DNA of 64,000 bases from Bacteroides sp. 519. Its GTDB lineage: Bacteria > Bacteroidota > Bacteroidia > Bacteroidales > Bacteroidaceae. Shown here one piece after another: positions 7,945 through 62,038 of the stretch. The notes beneath the pieces were generated by a model that worked only from the letters and a program-made list of their open reading frames with translations, was not told the origin of the DNA and did not search any database. The stretch's first letter is position 1. Each line of letters begins with the position of its first letter. A program made the translations under genes and the position numbers. Location of the stretch: assembly GCF_010500955.1 (NCBI RefSeq), contig NZ_QVMJ01000001.1, forward strand, positions 310,001 through 374,000. The letters are read 5' to 3'.

Positions 7945-8049
7945 GCCAATTTTGGACATAGTTGCGTAACCAATTCGTAACCTATTCCCAAAAATCCAAA
8001 ATAGGTTACGAATTGTCCGAAATTGGCACAGTGTTGTCCATTATTGGCA
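7945..8049. promoter_or_regulatory. Integrase-upstream nested repeats
   Basis: A perfect 15-bp dyad (7972-7986 with 8000-8014, AATTCGTAACCTATT) is enclosed by a second inverted pair, GCCAATTTTGGACA (7945-7958) and its near-complement at 8014-8027. The right unit recurs as a direct repeat: TTGTCCGAAATTGGCA (8013-8028) and TTGTCCATTATTGGCA (8034-8049), exactly 21 bp apart, two helical turns. This arrangement suits arm-type integrase or excisionase sites, or an operator for the integrase genes. Confidence 0.6.
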
Positions 8050-8108
8050 GTCTGTACTTATCTCATTATTTGATTGTTAAAAGTAATTTTGAAATTAAAT
8101 TTTGAGTT

Positions 8109-9332
8109 ATGCAAAAGAGTACATTCAACATCCTTTTCTATGTAAAAAGGAATGCAGTAAAAGCAAACGGCAAGATGCCGATTATGGGACGGATTACCGT
8201 TAATGGAGAAGCTGTTCAGTTTGGAGCAAAAACAGAAGTCAATCCTAAAATCTGGGATACGAAATCAGGAAAAGCTGTCGGCAAAACGCAGGAAGTAATT
8301 GATGTTAATGGTATCCTTGAAAGCATTAAGGCTACCATGACAAAAATTTACCATGATTTACAAGAGCAGGAAACCACCGTAACTCCCGAACGGATTAAAA
8401 ACATCTTCTTTGGTGTTGAAATTAGGCAACAGATGTTTTTGGAACACTTTCAACGCCACAATGATGATGTTGAACGATTGATAGGTATTAGCAAATCTAA
8501 AGCGACTTATCAAAAATATGAAGTAACAAGAAAGCACCTTGCCGACTTTATTAAAGAGAAATATAATTTGAGCGATATTTCCTTTAAAGAAATCAATCAC
8601 CTCTTTCTTACCGATTTTGAAGTCTATCTTTTAACTTCTTGCGGCTGTAATCCAAATACGACAGCTAAGTTCATGCAGTTCTTCAAACGGATTGTTATCA
8701 TAGCCAAGAATAACGGTTGGATTAAAGCTGATCCATTCGCCAATTACAAAATCCGCCTAAAAAAAGTGGATAGAGGCTATTTGACACAAGAAGAAGTTGA
8801 AGCTATTATGGCTAAGAAGTTTTCAACAAAACGATTGGAACAGGTACGAGATATTTTTGTATTTTCGTGTTTTTGCGGATTAGCATATATAGATGTAAAG
8901 AAATTGCGCAAAGAAAATATCCGCACGTCTTTTGACGGTAATCTATGGATTATGGGGAAAAGAGAGAAGACCGATGTTACATTCTCTATTCCATTACTTG
9001 ATATACCGAAAAAGATATTAGAAAAGTATGAAGGTGCTTTACCTGATAATCGTATATTGCCTGTTCCAAGTAATCAAAAGATGAATGCATACCTGAAGGA
9101 AATCGGAGATTTGTGTGAAATCAACAAGGAAATCTCATTTCATATGGGGCGGCACTCGTTTTCCAGCCTGATTACGCTTGAAGGCGGCGTCCCCATAGAA
9201 ACCGTTTCCAAGATGCTCGGTCATAGTGATATAAAGACCACTCAAATTTATGCCCGTGTTACCCCGAAAAAACTCTTTGAGGATATGGACAAATACATCG
9301 AGGCAAGCAAAGATTTAAAATTAGTTCTATAA
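8109..9332 (+). CDS. Tyrosine recombinase / integrase 1
   Basis: A 407-residue integrase of the Bacteroides element type: N-terminal arm-binding domain (1-95), SAM-like core-binding domain (about 110-215) and C-terminal catalytic domain. The HxxR box is HMGRHSF near residue 343 and the nucleophile is in TTQIYARV near residue 381. The block that normally carries Arg I reads CFCGLAYIDVKKLR, without the usual arginine, as in IntDOT. It stands directly after the repeat region and 21 bp before a second integrase, so the two are probably expressed together. Confidence 0.95.
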   Translation: MQKSTFNILFYVKRNAVKANGKMPIMGRITVNGEAVQFGAKTEVNPKIWDTKSGKAVGKTQEVIDVNGILESIKATMTKIYHDLQEQETTVTPERIKNIFFGVEIRQQMFLEHFQRHNDDVERLIGISKSKATYQKYEVTRKHLADFIKEKYNLSDISFKEINHLFLTDFEVYLLTSCGCNPNTTAKFMQFFKRIVIIAKNNGWIKADPFANYKIRLKKVDRGYLTQEEVEAIMAKKFSTKRLEQVRDIFVFSCFCGLAYIDVKKLRKENIRTSFDGNLWIMGKREKTDVTFSIPLLDIPKKILEKYEGALPDNRILPVPSNQKMNAYLKEIGDLCEINKEISFHMGRHSFSSLITLEGGVPIETVSKMLGHSDIKTTQIYARVTPKKLFEDMDKYIEASKDLKLVL

Positions 9333-9353
9333 CAAATCAAAAACAATAAAATC

Positions 9354-10541
9354 ATGCGATCTACATTTAAAATATTATTCTACATAAACCGGGGTAAAGT
9401 AAAAAAAGACGGTACAACCGCCATATTTTGCCGCATTACTGTTGATGGCGAACAAACCGTAATCACAACAGGTATTTTTTGTAATCCTAACGATTGGAAA
9501 AGTAAAAAGGGAGAAGTCAAAGACGAAAAGGCAAACAGTCAGCTAAAATCATTTCGTCTGCGTATTGAACAGACCTATGAGAACACGCTAAAAAAATATG
9601 GTGTTGTCAGTGTGGACTTACTTAAAAATGCAATTCTCGAAATACATACTGTCCCCACTATGTTATTATTGGCGGGCGAGGCGGAACGTGAACGGCTAAG
9701 GGTACGTTCCTTGGAAATAAACTCTACCTCTACCTACCGCCAGTCTAAGATTTCTCAAAATAACTTACGGGAATATCTTCTTGCCTTGAAAATGAAAGAC
9801 ATTGCCTTTACTGATATTACCGAAGAGTTCGGCGAAGGCTATAAACTGTTTCTAAAAGGCAAAGAATATAAGTCGGGACATATTAACCATTGTTTTACAT
9901 GGCTGAACCGATTGATTTACATTGCCGTTGACCAAGGGATTCTCCGGTTTAATCCGATTGCTGATGTGAAGTATGAAAAGAAAGAACCGCCCAAATTGCA
10001 GCACATAAGCAGGAATGAATTGAAGCTGATTATGGAAAAGCCGATGCCCAATAAGTTTCAGGAGTTGATTCGCCGAGCCTTTATCTTTTCTGCGTTTACG
10101 GCACTTGCCTATGTGGACGTAAAAGGACTGTACCCCCGCCATATCGGACGAACGGCAGAAGGCAAACCCTTTATCAGAATCCATCGGAAAAAGACACAGG
10201 TTGAAGCCTACGTCCCTTTACATCCGGTTGCCGAACAAATCCTGGCGCTCTATAATACGGAAGACGATACGAAGCCTGTATTCCCATTGCCTAACCGCGA
10301 CCAGATATGGTATTGCATTACTGAAATCGGCTTTCTTGCAGGTGTCAAGGGTAATATGAGCTATCATCAGAGCCGCCACACATTCGGAACACTCTTACTT
10401 TCAGAGGGTATTCCCATAGAAAGTATCAGCAAGATGATGGGACATACCAATATTTCTACAACTCAGGTCTATGCTAAGGTTACAGACCAGAAAATATCCG
10501 AGGATATGGATAAGCTGATGGAACGGCGAAAGGTTGAGTAA
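9354..10541 (+). CDS. Tyrosine recombinase / integrase 2
   Basis: A 395-residue paralogue of the preceding integrase with the same three domains; HQSRHTFG near residue 338 and TTQVYAKV near residue 373 give the HxxR and tyrosine motifs. Tandem pairs of this kind are common in Bacteroidales elements and may act together. Its 3' end (bases 10516-10531) is repeated exactly at 13172-13187 after the next gene. That suggests the last codons were altered by insertion of the AAA-HEPN segment. Confidence 0.95.
   Translation: MRSTFKILFYINRGKVKKDGTTAIFCRITVDGEQTVITTGIFCNPNDWKSKKGEVKDEKANSQLKSFRLRIEQTYENTLKKYGVVSVDLLKNAILEIHTVPTMLLLAGEAERERLRVRSLEINSTSTYRQSKISQNNLREYLLALKMKDIAFTDITEEFGEGYKLFLKGKEYKSGHINHCFTWLNRLIYIAVDQGILRFNPIADVKYEKKEPPKLQHISRNELKLIMEKPMPNKFQELIRRAFIFSAFTALAYVDVKGLYPRHIGRTAEGKPFIRIHRKKTQVEAYVPLHPVAEQILALYNTEDDTKPVFPLPNRDQIWYCITEIGFLAGVKGNMSYHQSRHTFGTLLLSEGIPIESISKMMGHTNISTTQVYAKVTDQKISEDMDKLMERRKVE
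10516..10531 (+). repeat. Left copy of insertion-flanking direct repeat
   Basis: TGATGGAACGGCGAAA, inside the last codons of integrase 2, recurs exactly at 13172-13187. The two copies bracket the terminator and the AAA-HEPN gene. Confidence 0.8.
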
Positions 10542-10546
10542 GGATC

Positions 10547-10594
10547 TTTAATATTAAGCCCCGAAATTGCTTGACTCCGGGGCTTAATATTAAA
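10547..10594 (+). terminator. Terminator after integrase 2
   Basis: TTTAATATTAAGCCCCG (10547-10563) and its exact complement (10578-10594) form a 17-bp stem with a 14-base loop, ending in A/T. It should stop transcription from the integrases and probably came with the inserted gene. The remaining 235 bp to the next start hold no gene; I see no perfect promoter there. Confidence 0.75.
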
Positions 10595-10829
10595 TAGGCA
10601 AAATGGGCTGGCAACAGGTTAATCCCATGCTTTGCGGGAGTTCTTTTTGCGGTAGAATAAAGGTTTCAAGACAGGAATACGACTGGTTCGCAAGTATTTA
10701 GTACTTTTATGGGCGCTAAGGATTATTGGCATAATAAATTATTCTTTTACACACTTCGTGCTTCGGGTAATTATTACGGCAATATTTAAGTTCTATATGT
10801 TATTTAATAAATAAAAAATTGATCTATTT

Positions 10830-13148
10830 ATGAAACCAATTGAGATTATTGGAATAAAAAATTTCAGAATCTTTGATGATGAAAAGGGAATGTTTGAGGA
10901 GATCGCTGCCATAAATATACTTACAGGAGCAAATAATGCCGGAAAAAGTACAATCATTAAATTTCTCCAGATGCTCAAAGACAGCATACAAGGAAATGAG
11001 TATCCTTTTGATTTGGATTTAACAGCTCAAGAACATTTATTAGGCGATTTTGATAATGTACTATTTAATAAGGAAAACAGAGAAGTTGTTATTCATTTAC
11101 CTTTTATCTTCTTAGGAATTAAAAACTTTTATATTTCTCTTAAATTCCTCGTGCCCTCCTCTAACAATGTCTACTATGCAAAATTAAGAGAGATTGAGGT
11201 TATAGATAAAAGTGATTATTCAGAAATATTCTCTTTTAAATATAGGGAAGCGACTGATTCAGAAAAAGAAATTTACAAGGAAGAATTCAAAAATGAGCAG
11301 GAAGAATATAAAAAAAAGAAAAAAGAAAAAGATAAAACAGATATTTCTTCATTTTATTTCCTTTTTCCACCCACAGAAAATCCTTTAGTTGCTTACATAG
11401 AATGGAATATTAGATTGGATAACCTCAAAAAATACTTTGACGACCTATTGAAAGTTTATAATCTATATTTAGAAAATAAAAAAAACTCGAAATGGCTTGA
11501 AAATGCGGATGAATCTCTTGAAGATAGCTGGTTGATTCCTTCAGAATTTATTAACTCCTTCAAGGATGAAATTGATATTGATATATGGAATGATTTTATA
11601 AATAATGAGGTTGATAAGAAAGGCGCAATAAGTGGGAAAGAACATATCGGAGAAAGCGATTTCCAATCTGAAGATTATTTCTCTCCACCTCCGGAAGTAG
11701 AAGAACTGGTGTATTATAACGCCTTGAAAATTTTAAAAGAAAAAGTAAATTGGAATAATCCTAAAATTGGAGATAGTAATTTTTCAGTTCTTGAAACGTG
11801 TTTTGATTTCAGTTGGAAGAAATTAATTCAAAGAATAAATTCTATAAGCTATTTATCAACCATAAGAGAAGAGAATTCAAGGATTTATATTTCCAAAAAT
11901 AACACCCCATTTATTAAATTATTAAAAGATTATGATTCGAGCGGATTTCAAAATTCGAGATTCATCAATAAATATCTAAAAGCGTTTAAAATAGGAAAGA
12001 GGATTAATGTTAATTACATACAAAAGCATCAGCTCATTACCGTCTCTGTTACTACTTTAAATGATATAGAACGAGACTTAGTTGATTTTGGATATGGCAT
12101 AAAACAACTTATATTAATTCTGATTCAAATTAGTGTATTAGCAGAAAAAAACAGAAGAACGGTTGAGGATTATGATGATGAAGGTGAATATATGCATGAT
12201 ATATATATTCCAAGTATGTTACTGGTTGAAGAACCTGAAACAAATCTTCATCCAAAGTGGCAATCTTTATTAGCAGAAATGTTTGTTGAAGCAAACAATC
12301 AATTTAATATTCAGTTTGTAATTGAAACTCACAGTGAATATATGATAAGAAAGCTTCAAACCTTAGTGGCAAATAATAAGATAAGCGGAGAGAAAATTAA
12401 AATATTCTATGTAAGGCATCCGGAAGATGTAAGTCAAGATAAAAAACAGATTTCCAACATTAATATACAGCCAGACGGTAGTATTGATTATCGAATTTTT
12501 GATAAGGGTTTTTTTGACGAAAATGATAATCTTGAATTAAGTTTATTGAATATTCAAAGAGATAAATTTTTGCACGATTTTGAAGAACTAAAAAGAACAA
12601 AAGAAGAAAATGAAAATAAACTATCTGAATTAGAGCAAAAAATTGATGACTATACAAAAAAACTTGACATAAGTGTTTATCGACAAATAATAACTCAACG
12701 CTTTGACATCTCAAAACTCTCATCAATTAGTGTCAAGTATCTAATATCAGGGCAGTTCCTATTAAAAAACATTGATACAAGCAGTGATTTCTCCCCGGTT
12801 ATAATACAATACGGGCGTGCCGTTGAAAACGAGTTAAAAGAAATATTCCTAAGCATAGATAATTCAAAAAAATGGATGTTAGGTAAAATGCAAGGTTCGT
12901 TAGAGAAATTTAAAAATGGCACAACGACATTACCTCAATGCAATGCCAGAGAGTATGCACAACTCCAAATCGAATTAGCAAACAGATTTAATACGCCATC
13001 AGACTTAAAAATAAATTTAATTGATGACATACGTGAAATAAGAAACTTAGCAGGCCATTCAGGGCAAACAAACAGCAAACAGGATGCCTTGGATTACATA
13101 TTAAAGATTAATGAATTTATAGACAAATGGATAGCTGAAAAAAAGTAA
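10830..13148 (+). CDS. AAA ATPase with C-terminal HEPN-like domain; candidate defence gene
   Basis: A 772-residue protein. The N-terminal ABC/OLD-type ATPase has Walker A GANNAGKST (residues 33-41), a long insert with charged helices (about 150-300), a signature-like segment, Walker B MLLVEEPETNLHP (about 463-475) and an H-loop ETHSEYM (about 498). No TOPRIM domain is seen. Residues about 585-625 are a coiled coil. The last 120 residues look HEPN-like and end with RNLAGH at 738-743, which fits the RX4H RNase motif. It is visibly A/T-rich compared with the integrases and sits alone between direct repeats. Phage defence by RNA cleavage is inference. Confidence 0.8.
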   Translation: MKPIEIIGIKNFRIFDDEKGMFEEIAAINILTGANNAGKSTIIKFLQMLKDSIQGNEYPFDLDLTAQEHLLGDFDNVLFNKENREVVIHLPFIFLGIKNFYISLKFLVPSSNNVYYAKLREIEVIDKSDYSEIFSFKYREATDSEKEIYKEEFKNEQEEYKKKKKEKDKTDISSFYFLFPPTENPLVAYIEWNIRLDNLKKYFDDLLKVYNLYLENKKNSKWLENADESLEDSWLIPSEFINSFKDEIDIDIWNDFINNEVDKKGAISGKEHIGESDFQSEDYFSPPPEVEELVYYNALKILKEKVNWNNPKIGDSNFSVLETCFDFSWKKLIQRINSISYLSTIREENSRIYISKNNTPFIKLLKDYDSSGFQNSRFINKYLKAFKIGKRINVNYIQKHQLITVSVTTLNDIERDLVDFGYGIKQLILILIQISVLAEKNRRTVEDYDDEGEYMHDIYIPSMLLVEEPETNLHPKWQSLLAEMFVEANNQFNIQFVIETHSEYMIRKLQTLVANNKISGEKIKIFYVRHPEDVSQDKKQISNINIQPDGSIDYRIFDKGFFDENDNLELSLLNIQRDKFLHDFEELKRTKEENENKLSELEQKIDDYTKKLDISVYRQIITQRFDISKLSSISVKYLISGQFLLKNIDTSSDFSPVIIQYGRAVENELKEIFLSIDNSKKWMLGKMQGSLEKFKNGTTTLPQCNAREYAQLQIELANRFNTPSDLKINLIDDIREIRNLAGHSGQTNSKQDALDYILKINEFIDKWIAEKK

Positions 13149-13171
13149 CAGCAGTTCAAATATAGAAAGGT

Positions 13172-13187
13172 TGATGGAACGGCGAAA
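13172..13187 (+). repeat. Right copy of insertion-flanking direct repeat
   Basis: Exact copy of 10516-10531. Reading on from it gives a short alternative integrase tail (MERRKTMLQTT, then stop), likely the original 3' end of integrase 2, followed by a terminator. Confidence 0.75.
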
Positions 13188-13205
13188 AACAATGTTGCAA
13201 ACTAC

Positions 13206-13245
13206 TTAAAAGGGCTACCGGAAATTACTCTGGTAGCCCTTTTAA
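13206..13245. terminator. Bidirectional terminator
   Basis: TTAAAAGGGCTACC (13206-13219) and GGTAGCCCTTTTAA (13232-13245) form a perfect 14-bp stem with flanking A and T runs. It can end the rightward AAA-HEPN/integrase transcript and the leftward HTH transcript. Confidence 0.85.
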
Positions 13246-13273
13246 ATTAAATCGAGCGTTTTCGGTCGGGTTA

Positions 13274-13570
13274 TTATTCCCATGCCTCACGATAGTTCTG
13301 TTCCAACAACTTTTGAATATCCGATTCTCTGTATAAGGTTTTACCCCCCAATTGAAGGTAAGGGATCTTGCCTTTGGTTCGGTATTCCTGTAATGCCCTC
13401 CGGCTGATTTTCAACCTGTCCGATACTTGCGCAACGGTCAAAAACCGTTCTCCGTTCAAAGACGGCTCATACCCTGTCATTACGATTTCGATTCTATCTA
13501 ACAATCTATCGAGCGAACAGAATAAAGATTTTATCCGCTCATTATCTTTAGTTACAAGCTCTGTACTCAT
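13274..13570 (-). CDS. Excisionase-like HTH protein
   Basis: A 98-residue protein with a helical N-terminal part and an HTH_17/excisionase-type DNA-binding domain (about residues 45-90; VSDRLKISRRALQEYR recognition segment, then the wing LGGKTLYR). It forms a two-gene operon with the HTH gene just upstream (2 bp gap). By analogy with Xis2c/Xis2d of CTnDOT the pair probably controls excision. Confidence 0.82.
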   Translation of the reverse strand: MSTELVTKDNERIKSLFCSLDRLLDRIEIVMTGYEPSLNGERFLTVAQVSDRLKISRRALQEYRTKGKIPYLQLGGKTLYRESDIQKLLEQNYREAWE

Positions 13571-13572
13571 AA

Positions 13573-13851
13573 TTACTCCGATTTCAGATTGTTGATGAAC
13601 CGCTCCACATCTTCGGGCTTATAGTACATCTTTCGATTAAACTTCGTATAAGCCAGCTTTCTTTTATCTCGCAAATACTGTAATGTATTAGGGTTGACAT
13701 TCAGAATAAGACAGACATCCTGATTATCCAACCAACCGTCAAGCTCTTTGTTTTTGTTCCGTTCAATCAGTTTTTCGGCTTTCTGAACAAACGATTCAAA
13801 ACGCCCCAGCATAGCCTCAAAAGTACGGGCTTCTATATTTATTATCTCCAT
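13573..13851 (-). CDS. Excisionase-like HTH protein
   Basis: A 92-residue partner of the previous protein with the same layout: helical N-terminus and a winged HTH (VCLILNVNPNTLQYLR, then KFNRKMYY). Read leftward, the upstream region carries TACCTTTG (13905-13898), a good -7 box, but no clear -33 element. Confidence 0.82.
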   Translation of the reverse strand: MEIINIEARTFEAMLGRFESFVQKAEKLIERNKNKELDGWLDNQDVCLILNVNPNTLQYLRDKRKLAYTKFNRKMYYKPEDVERFINNLKSE

Positions 13852-13922
13852 AGTAATTTACCTTTTATCGTTAATACTATGATTACGGGAAAACAAAGGT
13901 AAGTCATTAAAATACACCACAT

Positions 13923-13971
13923 ACCAGTCCTTTACGGGCTGGTAGCTTTCGTCCGCACTTGTCTATACCTA
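13923..13971. other. Hairpin plus dispersed 31-bp motif (possible oriT-like site)
   Basis: An imperfect inverted repeat (ACCAGTCC / GGGCTGGT, 13923-13943) runs into a motif at 13941-13971 whose core GGTAGCTTTCGTCCGC plus TTGTCTATACCTA matches about 24 of 31 positions of the motif in the tra/mob divergent region (36877-36907). A hairpin next to a conserved word is what a nick region looks like, but the relaxase site is unproven. The rest of the 490-bp gap (13852-14342) holds no clear gene. A short open frame ending at 14260 lacks a convincing start. Confidence 0.4.
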
Positions 13972-14342
13972 AAGTGCAAACTGATTCCGGCGGCGATTAA
14001 AATATGCCGTTTTTTTGTACTCCCTGTTCGGGCTATCCGGGAGTAAAGGGGGGATTTTTTCTACTGCCCGTATCTTATAACTTCTTCCTCTTTTAGCGGG
14101 AATGCCGACTTAGCCGATGAAGTGTTCGATTTCATGCTCGAAAGTATTTCCGTGTTCTTCACGCCGAAGCAAGTTCAAGCCTCAGAGCGGTTTCGTGAAA
14201 AATCTTCCTCTTTCCGTTCCGGCGAGCGTATTTATTCCCGAAAAACTTGCATCGGCTAAACACTACCTTTCTCTGCCCCTGAAACTCGATCACTCATAAC
14301 CGGCTCCGATACGGCATAGCGTTCTAAAAAAAAGTCAGAATT

Positions 14343-14582
14343 ATGATACGAACAGCAGAAAAAAACAGGAAACAACGATTCTCAAACCTTCCAATCAGCA
14401 TAGGTTGGTTTTTGAAAATATCCTTTGCGATAGCAGGTTTTGCCCTCTGGGGTTGGTCGTTCGTGGCAGTTGTCGCAGGGATTTATTTAGCGTGGGCAAT
14501 CATTAAAGGCATTTTGTCCTGCCTTATTCTTCTTGCCGTTATCGTTGGCTTTATCCTCCTTTTGATAGTATTAATTTTCTAA
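14343..14582 (+). CDS. Small two-helix membrane protein
   Basis: A 79-residue protein with a basic N-terminus (about 20 residues) and two hydrophobic segments (about 21-52 and 56-79). Not recognised. It is the first gene of a tight rightward operon that ends at 18160 and includes a ParB-like protein; such operons are conserved in Bacteroides conjugative elements. Confidence 0.6.
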   Translation: MIRTAEKNRKQRFSNLPISIGWFLKISFAIAGFALWGWSFVAVVAGIYLAWAIIKGILSCLILLAVIVGFILLLIVLIF

Positions 14583-14593
14583 AATATAAAGAC

Positions 14594-14806
14594 ATGAAAC
14601 CAAAGTATTTCAATTCGTTAGGCTCGTTAAACGAGTATGCAAACAACTATCCGAACAATAGTTTTTCGTTTGAACACAATCCCCGAAAATGCGGATGCGA
14701 CAGCGTTAGATGCAGTTTCGATGTAACCGACAAAGAGGATAATGACATTTTGGAAATCCTTGTTATCTGCCCCATTTGTGCCAATAACCCTAAAAACAGA
14801 CAGTAA
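14594..14806 (+). CDS. Small cysteine-rich hypothetical protein
   Basis: A 70-residue protein with CGCDSVRC and CPIC, probably one structural zinc site. It follows the membrane gene by 11 bp. No function can be named. Confidence 0.6.
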   Translation: MKPKYFNSLGSLNEYANNYPNNSFSFEHNPRKCGCDSVRCSFDVTDKEDNDILEILVICPICANNPKNRQ

Positions 14807-14807
14807 T

Positions 14808-15035
14808 ATGACACAGCCTAAAATGAACCTGCACGGAGTATCAATATGCCCCGCAGGAGAAGAAAGTTACGAGCGTTACAAGGACTTTCGCGGGAAATGG
14901 CTTTACCAGTACGATTATAGAGATACGGACGGCGAACTGTTCAGCGTAGTAATGCCGACCCTTACCGAGTGCCGAATGAGGCGGGATAAATGGTTATCCG
15001 AAAAAATAGCAAATAGTAATCCTTTAAATAGTTAA
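14808..15035 (+). CDS. Small hypothetical protein
   Basis: About 75 residues from the ATG at 14808, one base after the preceding stop; an upstream in-frame start at 14742 would overlap the previous gene and is less likely. Rich in Tyr, Arg and acidic residues, soluble, not recognised. Confidence 0.6.
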   Translation: MTQPKMNLHGVSICPAGEESYERYKDFRGKWLYQYDYRDTDGELFSVVMPTLTECRMRRDKWLSEKIANSNPLNS

Positions 15036-59897: not shown

Positions 59898-60995
59898 TCA
59901 ATCTTGCAACACGCTGAAATACATTTGATTGGAAGACTTTACATGTCTTCCGCAATGATAGGTCAGCGCACCCGTCATTCCGATTAGCTGGCGTATGCTT
60001 TGGAGATTCCATTTCAGAGCGTTATATTCCATTTTAGGGAATAAGGTTTCTCTTGATAGATTCTTATACTTTTCGATTAACTCGATGGCTTCGGGAAGCA
60101 GCTTCACCCGGCACAGCTTGCCATTCTTGCCGCGTTGGTATTTGAGCCATAAGTCGCCCGCATCGTCTTTAGACAGGTTATCGTTGGTTATGGATATTAC
60201 ATCGACGTAGGCAGTCCCGGTATAGCACGCAAAAAGAAACATATCACGGGTGGTAATATGCGACCATCGGTGTTCTTCAAACTGTAAATCCCGTATCTTT
60301 TCAAATTCTTCACGGCTTAAGGTGCGCGGTGGATTAACTTTTTGCTTTAGCAAAGGATAGTTTACAAAGTAATGTCTATCGGAATGCCCCTCTTTGAACG
60401 CAATCCGGCAAATCTTCTTTAATATCGCCAAATAGTGGCGCACAGTTTCTACGCCTAAATTTCTTTCAAGAATGAGATAATCCTGAAATTCCCGGATAAA
60501 CTGTTCATTTAGCTGGCTGAATGCAAGGTCTTTGACATTGTGATTTTTGCTGACAAACTCGCCTAATCTTCTCCGAGTGTAGAGATAATTCGGGATTGTA
60601 CGGTGGGAAACATCTATTCCGACACGTGCCCTTACCTCTTCAATATGGCGGTCGAAGAGCCGGAACAGCGTCATCTGTGTAGCTATACCACCTTGAAACT
60701 GGTTCTTTACAGCTGTGGCATCGAACGGTATATTTCGTTCGGTTAGAATGCTGTAAGCCTCGTTGATACTAAGCAGTAGTTTATCTATCTTCTCGTTAAT
60801 TTCGACTGCTTCTTGGCTTTTCCCGTTCAAACGGCTGGCTCGCGGATTCCAAAGCGAGAGAGTGCAGGAGAGTTTACTACTGAACTGTGCAACAGTATCG
60901 TCGACAGTTATTCTTCCCATAATCGGGGTCTTTCTTGACTTGTCAAGAACACTCTTTTTCAGGTAGAGTAATACCTTAAATTTCTCATCTTTCAT
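59898..60995 (-). pseudogene. Truncated tyrosine recombinase
   Basis: A 365-residue frame with the arm-binding, SAM-like and most of the catalytic domain of a Bacteroides integrase, different from those at 8.1-10.5 kb. Homology runs to YHCGRH, the HxxR box near residue 350, then breaks into an unrelated tail (KSSNQMYFSVLQD). The LGH block and the catalytic tyrosine are gone, so it should be inactive. The break marks a deletion or recombination at about 59.95 kb. Confidence 0.85.
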
Positions 60996-61176
60996 ACGCT
61001 TATATTTTGTGGGTAAAGTTACCCGTTTTATAAGCGCTCTTAATCATGTAAAATGCAGCATATCAGCGCAAAAGAATAATTCTAATTACCTGTTTTCAAC
61101 TGGAAACAGACAGGCTAACGATTTGGTAACTGAAATGTAGCGCAAATCTGCTTCGGGATAAACATTTCAAATAGCT

Positions 61177-61737
61177 TTAGAATAATGCAAACCTATTTTC
61201 ATACCTCACAGTGAAAATACCGTTCTGTACATATCGTTTGGCAATCTTTCCGACAGTAGTCTTATATTTGCCAGCGAATGTCTTGTACATACTGTATTGC
61301 ATGATATATCTGTAGTGGCTCAAAATAGAACAGTTGTTCGCAATTGAGTAGTAATTGTAGAACCCTCGAATCATTGAGTTATACTTCTCAAGAATCTCTA
61401 AATCATCGTTATTTATCGACTGGCTAAAACACTTAGGTTTCCATTGCTCTTTTCCATTATGATATCTAAGTTCCATCATGTTGGAGTCAATCAATTTCTT
61501 TTTTATCGTGTCCATTGGCAGTTTTAGATATACCTTTTTGTTAAAGGCTCTAACCATACGACCTAAAGAATCCCTTTTAGTAAGGTTGGATTTACGCACA
61601 TAAATTTCATACCCAAGAAACTTGGCTGATTTTTCTGTATGGGTAATCAAAGTCTTTTCATCTGACAGTTCAAGTTTAAGGTTCTCAGAAAGGAATCTTG
61701 TTATATCCTCTTTGACCTTTTGACTTTGAAATCCGGC
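61177..61737 (-). pseudogene. Group II intron reverse transcriptase/maturase fragment
   Basis: About 185 residues homologous to the region after the catalytic YADD motif through domain X (EDITRFLSENLKLELSDEKTLITHTEKSAKFLGYEI; later YYSIANNCSILSHYRYIMQYSMYKTFAGKYK). Both ends are lost. Upstream it fuses out of frame to the tra gene at about 61737, downstream it stops soon after IFTVRYE. I see no intron domain V beside it, so the intron is not functional. Confidence 0.82.
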
Positions 61738-62038
61738 TATGGTATTTTTTGCGGATACCGACCTGTTTCCCGTTTCTTGTCGGGATGTTTGCATTTACAA
61801 GAAACCGTTTTTTATAGTCAATCATAGATTGTTCAAGAACTGTTTCTTTGTTTGGAACAACGATCATTTGTACTTCCTGTTCTTCTTCCTGAACAGTTTC
61901 TTCACACTTGCTTTCTCTTATTCGTTTTCTGTGGCGCATTGCTTTGGGTATCATTACCACTGCAAGCACGACAAGGCAGCATACGATAAGACCTATCATT
62001 ATCGTATTGTCATTGAAAAAAATCGGATTGGGTATCAT
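61738..62038 (-). pseudogene. Truncated membrane-anchored DUF3408-like tra gene
   Basis: The first 100 residues are intact: one helix (about 13-30), acidic linker, then RNGKQVGIRKKYH, the start of a DUF3408-like domain. The rest was replaced by group II intron sequence at about 61737. It corresponds in position to 34473-35213 of the complete operon. Confidence 0.75.

Follow-up and report, generated by a model that had tools for sequence, protein, structure and literature searches.

The closest described counterparts of the locus studied here come from two kinds of mobile element. P4-like satellites carry a variable, defence-rich hotspot between psu and int (PMC9122126), and the Bacteroidales integrative and conjugative elements (ICEs) GA1 and GA2 show cargo replacement on the same ICE backbone (PMC8102008). 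Here we use a computational comparison of related elements to study a stretch of 64,000 nucleotides from Bacteroides sp. 519 (the window; contig NZ_QVMJ01000001.1, positions 310,001 to 374,000 of the forward strand) which, judged from its genes, is part of a CTnDOT-type ICE. The locus is the interval between int2, the second of two tandem tyrosine recombinase genes, and HTHa, a small excisionase-like gene that converges on it; in the window this interval holds the gene of an OLD-like ATPase with a probable C-terminal HEPN domain (AAA-HEPN, the cargo gene). The P4 hotspot and ours are alike in being variable, in lying next to an integrase gene and in holding, at one position, cargo that changes from one related element to another; they differ in that ours belongs to a Bacteroidales ICE, lies between converging integrase and excisionase-like genes and has some cargos flanked by local duplications. 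With GA1 and GA2 it shares the bacterial order, the class of mobile element and a common backbone with different cargo, whereas the GA1/GA2 account, in the portion available, concerns type VI secretion system cargo and integrase swaps and not a slot at an integrase 3' end. We found no description of the int2-HTHa slot in the parts of the literature surveyed, which is no proof that none exists. The reading that we favour, and hold to be reasonably probable, is that the int2-HTHa stretch in this CTnDOT-like family of Bacteroidales ICEs is an integrase-adjacent defence slot filled by insertion-duplication.

A first-pass annotation, made from the letters of the window alone, had proposed that a 2.65-kb cargo entered the 3' end of int2 and that this end is a recurrent slot with other cargo in related elements, and both proposals are borne out. 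In two Dysgonomonas loci (L044 and L045; int2 97% identical in amino acids) homology to the window stops at 10531 and resumes at 13160/13172, with nothing between, and the site is also empty in L046, L047, L049 and L050. Eight named loci carry a full-length int2 at 75% identity or more: six are empty, one (L048) holds other cargo and one (L043, from Bacteroides sp. 224) has the window's cargo gene, 86% identical in amino acids. The opposite pattern, with the AAA-HEPN gene in every relative and no empty site, was not found. Even within the genome of the window there is a second such element (L090) whose slot is empty, with an interval of 77 bp.

To place these relatives in a wider sample, int2 loci were drawn from 301 family genomes, 393 order genomes and a named genome set, in which a protein search with int2 gave 22 loci. 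Duplicates were removed before counting (L087 = L057, L115 = L044, L116 = L051), an IMG/VR match (L136) identical in sequence to L043 was not counted, and 68 non-redundant loci whose int2 end reached at least 50% identity were kept; outside these 68 stand L062 and L129-L133, with no int2 at this threshold, and seven listed int2 places (contig ends, truncated or at about 50% identity). Because the loci were selected on int2 similarity, other ICE families are unrepresented. HTHa lies behind int2 in 53 of the 68 loci and is absent in 15, in some through contig ends. Among the 53, the interval is shorter than 100 bp in 10, measures 459-760 bp in 23 and exceeds 1 kb in 20, the window and L043 included. 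Compared in this way, the interval is shown to be a recurrent cargo slot, empty or differently filled in related elements. As a separate observation, a small gene of about 100-130 residues stands between int2 and HTHa in L051, L052, L059, L061, L064, L081, L095-L098, L100, L110-L113 and L124; an interval of 70-80 bp, like that of the window's nearest relatives, is too short to hold it.

What the slot contains was assessed with PADLOC models on 20 proteins from 15 of the 18 other long slots. Matches at 1e-30 or better were obtained for 11 of the 20 proteins, in eight of the 15 slots; five slots gave weaker matches and two gave none. The clear matches, in six slots, are a type IIG enzyme (L051), a type I methylase (L080), QatA with QatC (L094), Drt3a with Drt3b (L108), AbiLi and AbiLii with HerA (L117) and AbiU (L121), of which QatA+QatC, Drt3a+Drt3b and AbiLi+AbiLii are recognised systems whose adjoining genes lie together inside the slot. 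Matches to PrimPol (L102) and mad3 (L052) are doubtful, the latter in a protein that we take to be a UvrA-like ABC protein, and for L091 and L120, whose cargos were each represented by a single scanned protein, no PADLOC model matched at 1e-8. We also noted open reading frames (ORFs) in the slots of L121, L123 and L128 that are presumably transposase-like.

The record of how cargo may have arrived lies in the direct repeat around the AAA-HEPN gene. As the first-pass annotation had noticed, an exact 16-bp sequence, TGATGGAACGGCGAAA, occurs first within the final int2 codons (10516-10531) and again at 13172-13187 behind the AAA-HEPN gene, where reading on in frame does give another integrase tail, IERLMERRKTMLQTT followed by a stop. 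There is no further site with three or fewer mismatches in the 64 kb; because shuffled sequences often match at that setting (0.67 sites on average, two or more in 20 of 100 shuffles), the loose count proves nothing and the two exact copies alone count. When the int2 end is compared with the sequence following the cargo, no exact match exceeds these 16 bases, and the best of 300 shuffles of the flanks is 11; of 240 pairs of stretches at the same distance in the window only three share at least 12 bases (this pair with 16, the others with 12 and 13). With mismatches allowed the repeat extends to 28 bp, 10504-10531 against 13160-13187, with 24 identical positions, and none of 200 dinucleotide shuffles did as well. 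Empty relatives had been predicted to read through into the longer tail and a terminator. They exist and have the terminator, but not the tail: L044 and L045 read MERRKAM and a stop, then the terminator, then HTHa, and at the position of their TAG stop the window's dead int2 copy has TTG, giving an LQTT extension found only in that dead copy.

Aligning the window and L043 with the empty sites reveals that the duplication involves more than the end of int2. The left junction consists of the int2 end, a terminator of type A and roughly 30 bp of the HTHa end, and the right junction of the int2 end, a terminator and the full HTHa; in the left copy the int2 side is complete and the HTHa side cut, and in the right copy this is reversed. 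Both terminators are of type A in L043, while the window has type A on the left and, as in L044/L045, type B on the right. Over 87 bp the L043 repeat has 86 ungapped columns, 74 of them identical and 12 mismatched, and 3 gap positions (none of 200 shuffles as good); extended to the HTHa end, it shows 114 identities, 24 mismatches and 22 gap positions. Judged from this alignment, the int2-end/terminator/HTHa-end region has been duplicated over a greater length and the copies have decayed, the 16-mer being the core that stayed intact. Pairwise tests are weak for two of its parts: the window's HTHa remnant alone is not significant (5 and 15 shuffles out of 100 did as well), and a test confined to the int2 tail missed the L043 copy (12 of 100 and 19 of 100), so these two parts rest on the multiple alignment with the empty sites. 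Terminators of both types fold into strong hairpins, one behind each copy, the right one starting at 13206, where the first-pass annotation had placed a terminator; a consensus terminator scan that requires a T-run found none.

From this layout we infer that the cargo entered by insertion-duplication. The incoming DNA would have carried, besides the cargo, its own version of the convergent intergenic stretch (int2 end, terminator and HTHa end), and a single crossover between this stretch and its resident copy would leave int2 whole on the left, beside a shortened HTHa end, and HTHa whole on the right, beside a shortened int2 end; the copies in the window are arranged in this way. Because the left terminator there is of type A and the right one of type B, this exchange, or a later one, would have taken place within the 16 bases at the int2 end that the copies share. 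By entering behind two genes that converge, the cargo would harm neither of them and would stay between terminators.

Contrary to what the first-pass annotation had supposed, the entry is not recent, because both the repeat copies and the cargo gene have diverged: between the two copies in L043, 12 of the 86 ungapped positions are mismatched, and the synonymous divergence (Ks) of the cargo gene between the window and L043 is 0.46. The corresponding values are 0.23 for int2, 0.22 for HTHa, 0.28 for HTHb (a second small gene beside HTHa) and 0.34 for ParB. A cargo value above those of int2 and HTHa is expected if cargo and backbone differ in history, and the two do seem to have partly separate histories.

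Do other slots keep a similar record? Twenty long slots were put through a repeat test with stricter alignment scoring and 200 shuffles each, without correction for multiple testing; permissive scoring gave meaningless repeat scores and was dropped. Repeats of local sequence near the borders, equalled by none of the shuffles, flank four of them (the window, L043, L052 and L080). The L052 repeat (39 bp, 35/39 identical) is the terminator, and in L061, an empty relative, a single 39-base stretch aligns with both copies; the two copies in L080 (99 bp, 87/99 identical) likewise align to one stretch of L063 and of L126. L051 is borderline (9 of 200 shuffles) and was not counted, and its right border resembles a second copy of the upstream gene end in comparison with L061.

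The borders themselves were compared in nine related loci (L056, L057, L091, L094 and L119-L123) with flanks that are 88-99% identical. On the left, no more than about 20 bases from the int2 end, mean conservation drops from 0.97 to 0.52; on the right it climbs from 0.53 to 0.95 at one point, where random sequence gives 0.46. The int2 C-terminal tails differ across all nine loci, and the left borders fall at nearly the same int2 codons, directly behind ATATGGATAA, which is also where the window's dead copy begins. In a further group (L063, L102, L108, L117 and L126) the sequence changes, by eye, at the last HTHa codons. Sharp borders of this kind could arise if cargo repeatedly entered at one place, or if turnover is high and selection on gene ends trims the result. 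In 15 loci the slot flank also contains a conserved stretch (for example L056:9502-9661) predicted to form a long hairpin (-48 kcal/mol), with 42 predicted pairs of which 4 have changes on both sides; the hairpin is part of the flank and not of the cargo, and the side of it on which the cargo lies, towards int2 or towards HTHa, varies between elements.

Several of our own results speak against a defence slot filled by insertion-duplication. Sixteen of the 20 long slots have no border repeat that passes the test; L120 is among them, since its 18-bp AT-rich match beats 200 shuffles but lies away from the borders. Because the window and L043 share one cargo, the repeats stand for three of 19 cargos, and our confidence is lowered for that reason. 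Duplication may be one entry route among several, and the sharp borders could come from selection on gene ends combined with high turnover, with no special entry mechanism. Along the cargo gene, Ks between the window and L043 ranges from 0.20 to 0.76, by which measure the history of the cargo is mosaic. Nor was the PADLOC control clean: of ten control ORFs from outside the slots (10 of 15 candidates used), three matched at 1e-30 or better, two more weakly and five not at all, two of the three matches being similar methylases (L094 and L121). The slot is a holder of known defence systems; enrichment for defence over the rest of the element is not proven.

The alternative that survives best, which we consider possible though rather unlikely, is that ICEs trade cargo through double homologous exchange in their shared int2 and HTHa flanks and that the repeat in the window is left over from an old tandem duplication of the intergenic region. 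Flanks of 88-99% identity around unrelated cargos in the group of L057 speak for it, as do the missing border repeats in most long slots and the mixed terminators of the window, the right matching L044 and the left L049/L050. It leaves the first entry of each cargo unexplained, however, together with the repeats of local sequence that flank other cargos in L052 and L080. We regard it as unlikely that the slot is a site of ordinary neutral accretion and the AAA-HEPN gene has no role in defence: the imperfect PADLOC control favours this, as do slots such as L048 and L052 whose genes we take to be non-defence, but it sits poorly with the adjoining-gene systems QatA+QatC, Drt3a+Drt3b and AbiLi+AbiLii.

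An integron-like process, in which the int2 3' end would serve the element's own Int1 and Int2 as a resident attachment site for the insertion of circular cassettes, appears improbable to us. The near-identical int2 codons at the nine left borders, behind the same sequence at which the dead copy of the window starts, and the conserved flank hairpin in 15 loci are in its favour; against it, no common core was seen by eye at both ends in the nine loci, the duplications differ in length (28, 87, 39 and 99 bp) and place, and no conserved cassette end was seen. In its boldest form, a long shot in our estimation, the int2 3' end would be a dedicated loading dock at which the paired recombinases of the element itself insert circular defence cassettes that carry an int2-end/terminator segment, an integron-like immune locus whose cargo turns over independently of whole-element transfer. 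A transposon or satellite inserted with a 16-bp target-site duplication, as the exact repeat and the empty sites might first suggest, is very improbable, since the window's cargo has no transposase or integrase, the L043 repeat runs on into the terminator and the HTHa end, and the duplications are not short and fixed but vary from 28 to 99 bp among slots, so that the 16-bp repeat, real as it is, marks something longer than a target site.

Turning to the cargo protein, its description in the first-pass annotation as an OLD-like ATPase without TOPRIM and with RNLAGH near its end was accurate. Residues 1-575 form an OLD-like ABC ATPase with AAA_15 and AAA_21 matches above the cut-offs, the six sequences aligned, with identities as low as 26%, show no variation at its Walker A and EPE/THSEY positions, no Toprim model matched at E <= 0.1, and RNLAGH occupies residues 738-743 of 772. 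A structure model of the full-length protein was too poor to use (predicted local distance difference test, pLDDT, 56.6). The core resembles the OLD family and AriA of PARIS (PADLOC AriA 1.2e-18, Old 1e-14; weak fold matches of the poor model to 8v45 and 6p74). Unlike OLD, the protein has a helical C-terminal domain with RNxxxH in place of a Toprim match, and unlike PARIS there is neither an AriB-like neighbour gene in the cargo nor an AriB (DUF4435/Toprim) domain in the protein at E <= 0.1. The best PADLOC matches are to the ATPases NsnB (1.6e-39) and PDC-M55A (1.2e-34), in two stretches; the likeness to these lies in the ATPase core, with the best stretch at residues 367-567, whereas the C-terminal domain is unmatched.

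That C-terminal domain probably has an RnlA/LsoA-like HEPN fold. R738, N739 and H743 are invariant in the window, L043, a homologue in genome G782 and a paralogue in the same genome, and fit the Rx4-6H motif of HEPN domains. A model of the C-terminal 152 residues built from the four sequences is all helix, and VIA-align, run among the Foldseek candidates, ranked LsoA first (Z 10.5, root-mean-square deviation 3.4, 130 aligned), then AF0298 (Z 10.1) and RnlA (Z 10.0), with HEPN in the title of 11 of the first 26 rows, including RnlA's own HEPN domain; helical bundles can reach high scores of this kind by chance. Other results pull the opposite way: the model itself is modest (pLDDT 64, predicted template modelling score 0.60), Foldseek alone gave no match at E <= 0.001, a sequence profile search of the PDB returned no HEPN for this domain, and Pfam HEPN_RiboL-PSP stayed below its cut-off (0.0055 in the G782 homologue, 0.061 in the window). 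Because bundles score by chance and neither Foldseek nor the sequence profile was significant, the fold is probable and not proven. Compared with the RnlA and LsoA toxins, to which it aligns best and whose Rx4H motif it shares, the domain is fused to an OLD-like ATPase, has no sequence-level match and has no separate antitoxin-like gene in the cargo. The window's cargo holds no second gene of note. We infer that AAA-HEPN is an antiphage gene, in which the ATPase would sense infection and the predicted HEPN domain would cut RNA.

The cargo gene is full-length in one of the 301 family genomes, its own, with the ATPase core only in five others (E <= 1e-30), and among 395 phylum genomes there is one further full-length homologue, that of G782 (49%; E <= 1e-25). 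The protein was not found in phage records, and of 20 plasmid records that matched none covered 80% of it. In G782 (region 4181-16755 of L137) the homologue adjoins an operon with nucleotidyltransferase-like, E1/E2-like and JAB-like genes, which we take to be a type II cyclic-oligonucleotide-based antiphage signalling system (CBASS), and it is also near the paralogue, a 956-residue protein with RNCAGH close to its C-terminus. On our presumed reading of these neighbours, the homologue looks as though it sits in a defence island.

The features of the window are collected in the table below. Its assignment to a CTnDOT-type ICE rests on Bacteroidetes-type tra genes and RteC (TraG P-loop 2e-200, YWFCY coupling protein 9.6e-51, DUF4138, DUF4141, RteC 3.7e-73); a topoisomerase gene is also among its ICE genes.

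Table. Features of the slot and its borders (window positions).
Feature	Position	Strand	Evidence
int1, tyrosine recombinase, hybrid gene	8109..9332	+	Phage_integrase 1.9e-16; DNA match to L043/L044 from 9140 on
int2, tyrosine recombinase, upstream border of slot	9354..10541	+	Phage_integrase 2.9e-15, Arm-DNA-bind_5; 97% amino acid identity to L043, L044, L045
Left repeat copy, functional int2 end, exact core 10516-10531	10504..10531	+	
Terminator-like hairpin type A, as in empty sites L049, L050	10548..10593	+	-22.4 kcal/mol, z -4.4; alignment
HTHa 3'-end remnant, left part of duplicated segment	10619..10648	-	alignment with L049, L050, matching window unbroken to 10647
Cargo gene, OLD-like ATPase, 772 residues, probable C-terminal HEPN domain	10830..13148	+	AAA_15 1.2e-18, AAA_21 2.9e-18
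RNLAGH (residues 738-743), candidate HEPN catalytic motif, R738, H743	13041..13058	+	R, N, H invariant in four sequences
Right repeat copy, dead int2 end, exact core 13172-13187	13160..13187	+	
Terminator-like hairpin type B, as in empty sites L044, L045	13206..13245	+	-27.4 kcal/mol, z -8.9; alignment
HTHa, excisionase-like, downstream border of slot	13274..13570	-	HTH_17 4e-13; TIGR01764 excise 1.6e-6, 28.4 bits (cut-off 28.8)
HTHb, second small HTH_17 gene	13573..13851	-	HTH_17 4.6e-11

Outside the slot, int1 matches the DNA of related elements only from 9140, and the corresponding int1 start lies inverted at 59955-61197 (region 59898-61197); the body of the element looks as though it was inverted by recombination within the conserved catalytic box of two integrase genes. 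A type II intron maturase fragment (Intron_maturas2 1.6e-17) stands at 61180-61794, where the element has its right end. At 157-314 bp upstream of int1, 13 of the 22 named loci (L043-L052, L056, L057 and L060) have the end of a minus-strand fragment of another integrase (query residues from about 335 to 392, starting at 302 in L056 and L057), as if these elements inserted into integrase genes at the catalytic box. The window has no tRNA, and Rfam at gathering scores gave no match in its positions 8000-15000 nor in L056, L057, L080, L091, L102 and L117.

To our knowledge, little is established about the routes by which mobile-element hotspots gain and lose their defence genes. The slot described here is available side by side in empty form, with this cargo and with other cargos, and in some cases its borders are duplicated in a way that suggests a testable entry reaction. 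In the AAA-HEPN protein a sensor of OLD type would be joined to an effector resembling RnlA, and the slot is a place to look for new antiphage genes in Bacteroidales, for example in the cargos of L091 and L120. We would class it as a further instance of a defence hotspot beside an integrase gene, one with an unusual record of possible cargo entry.

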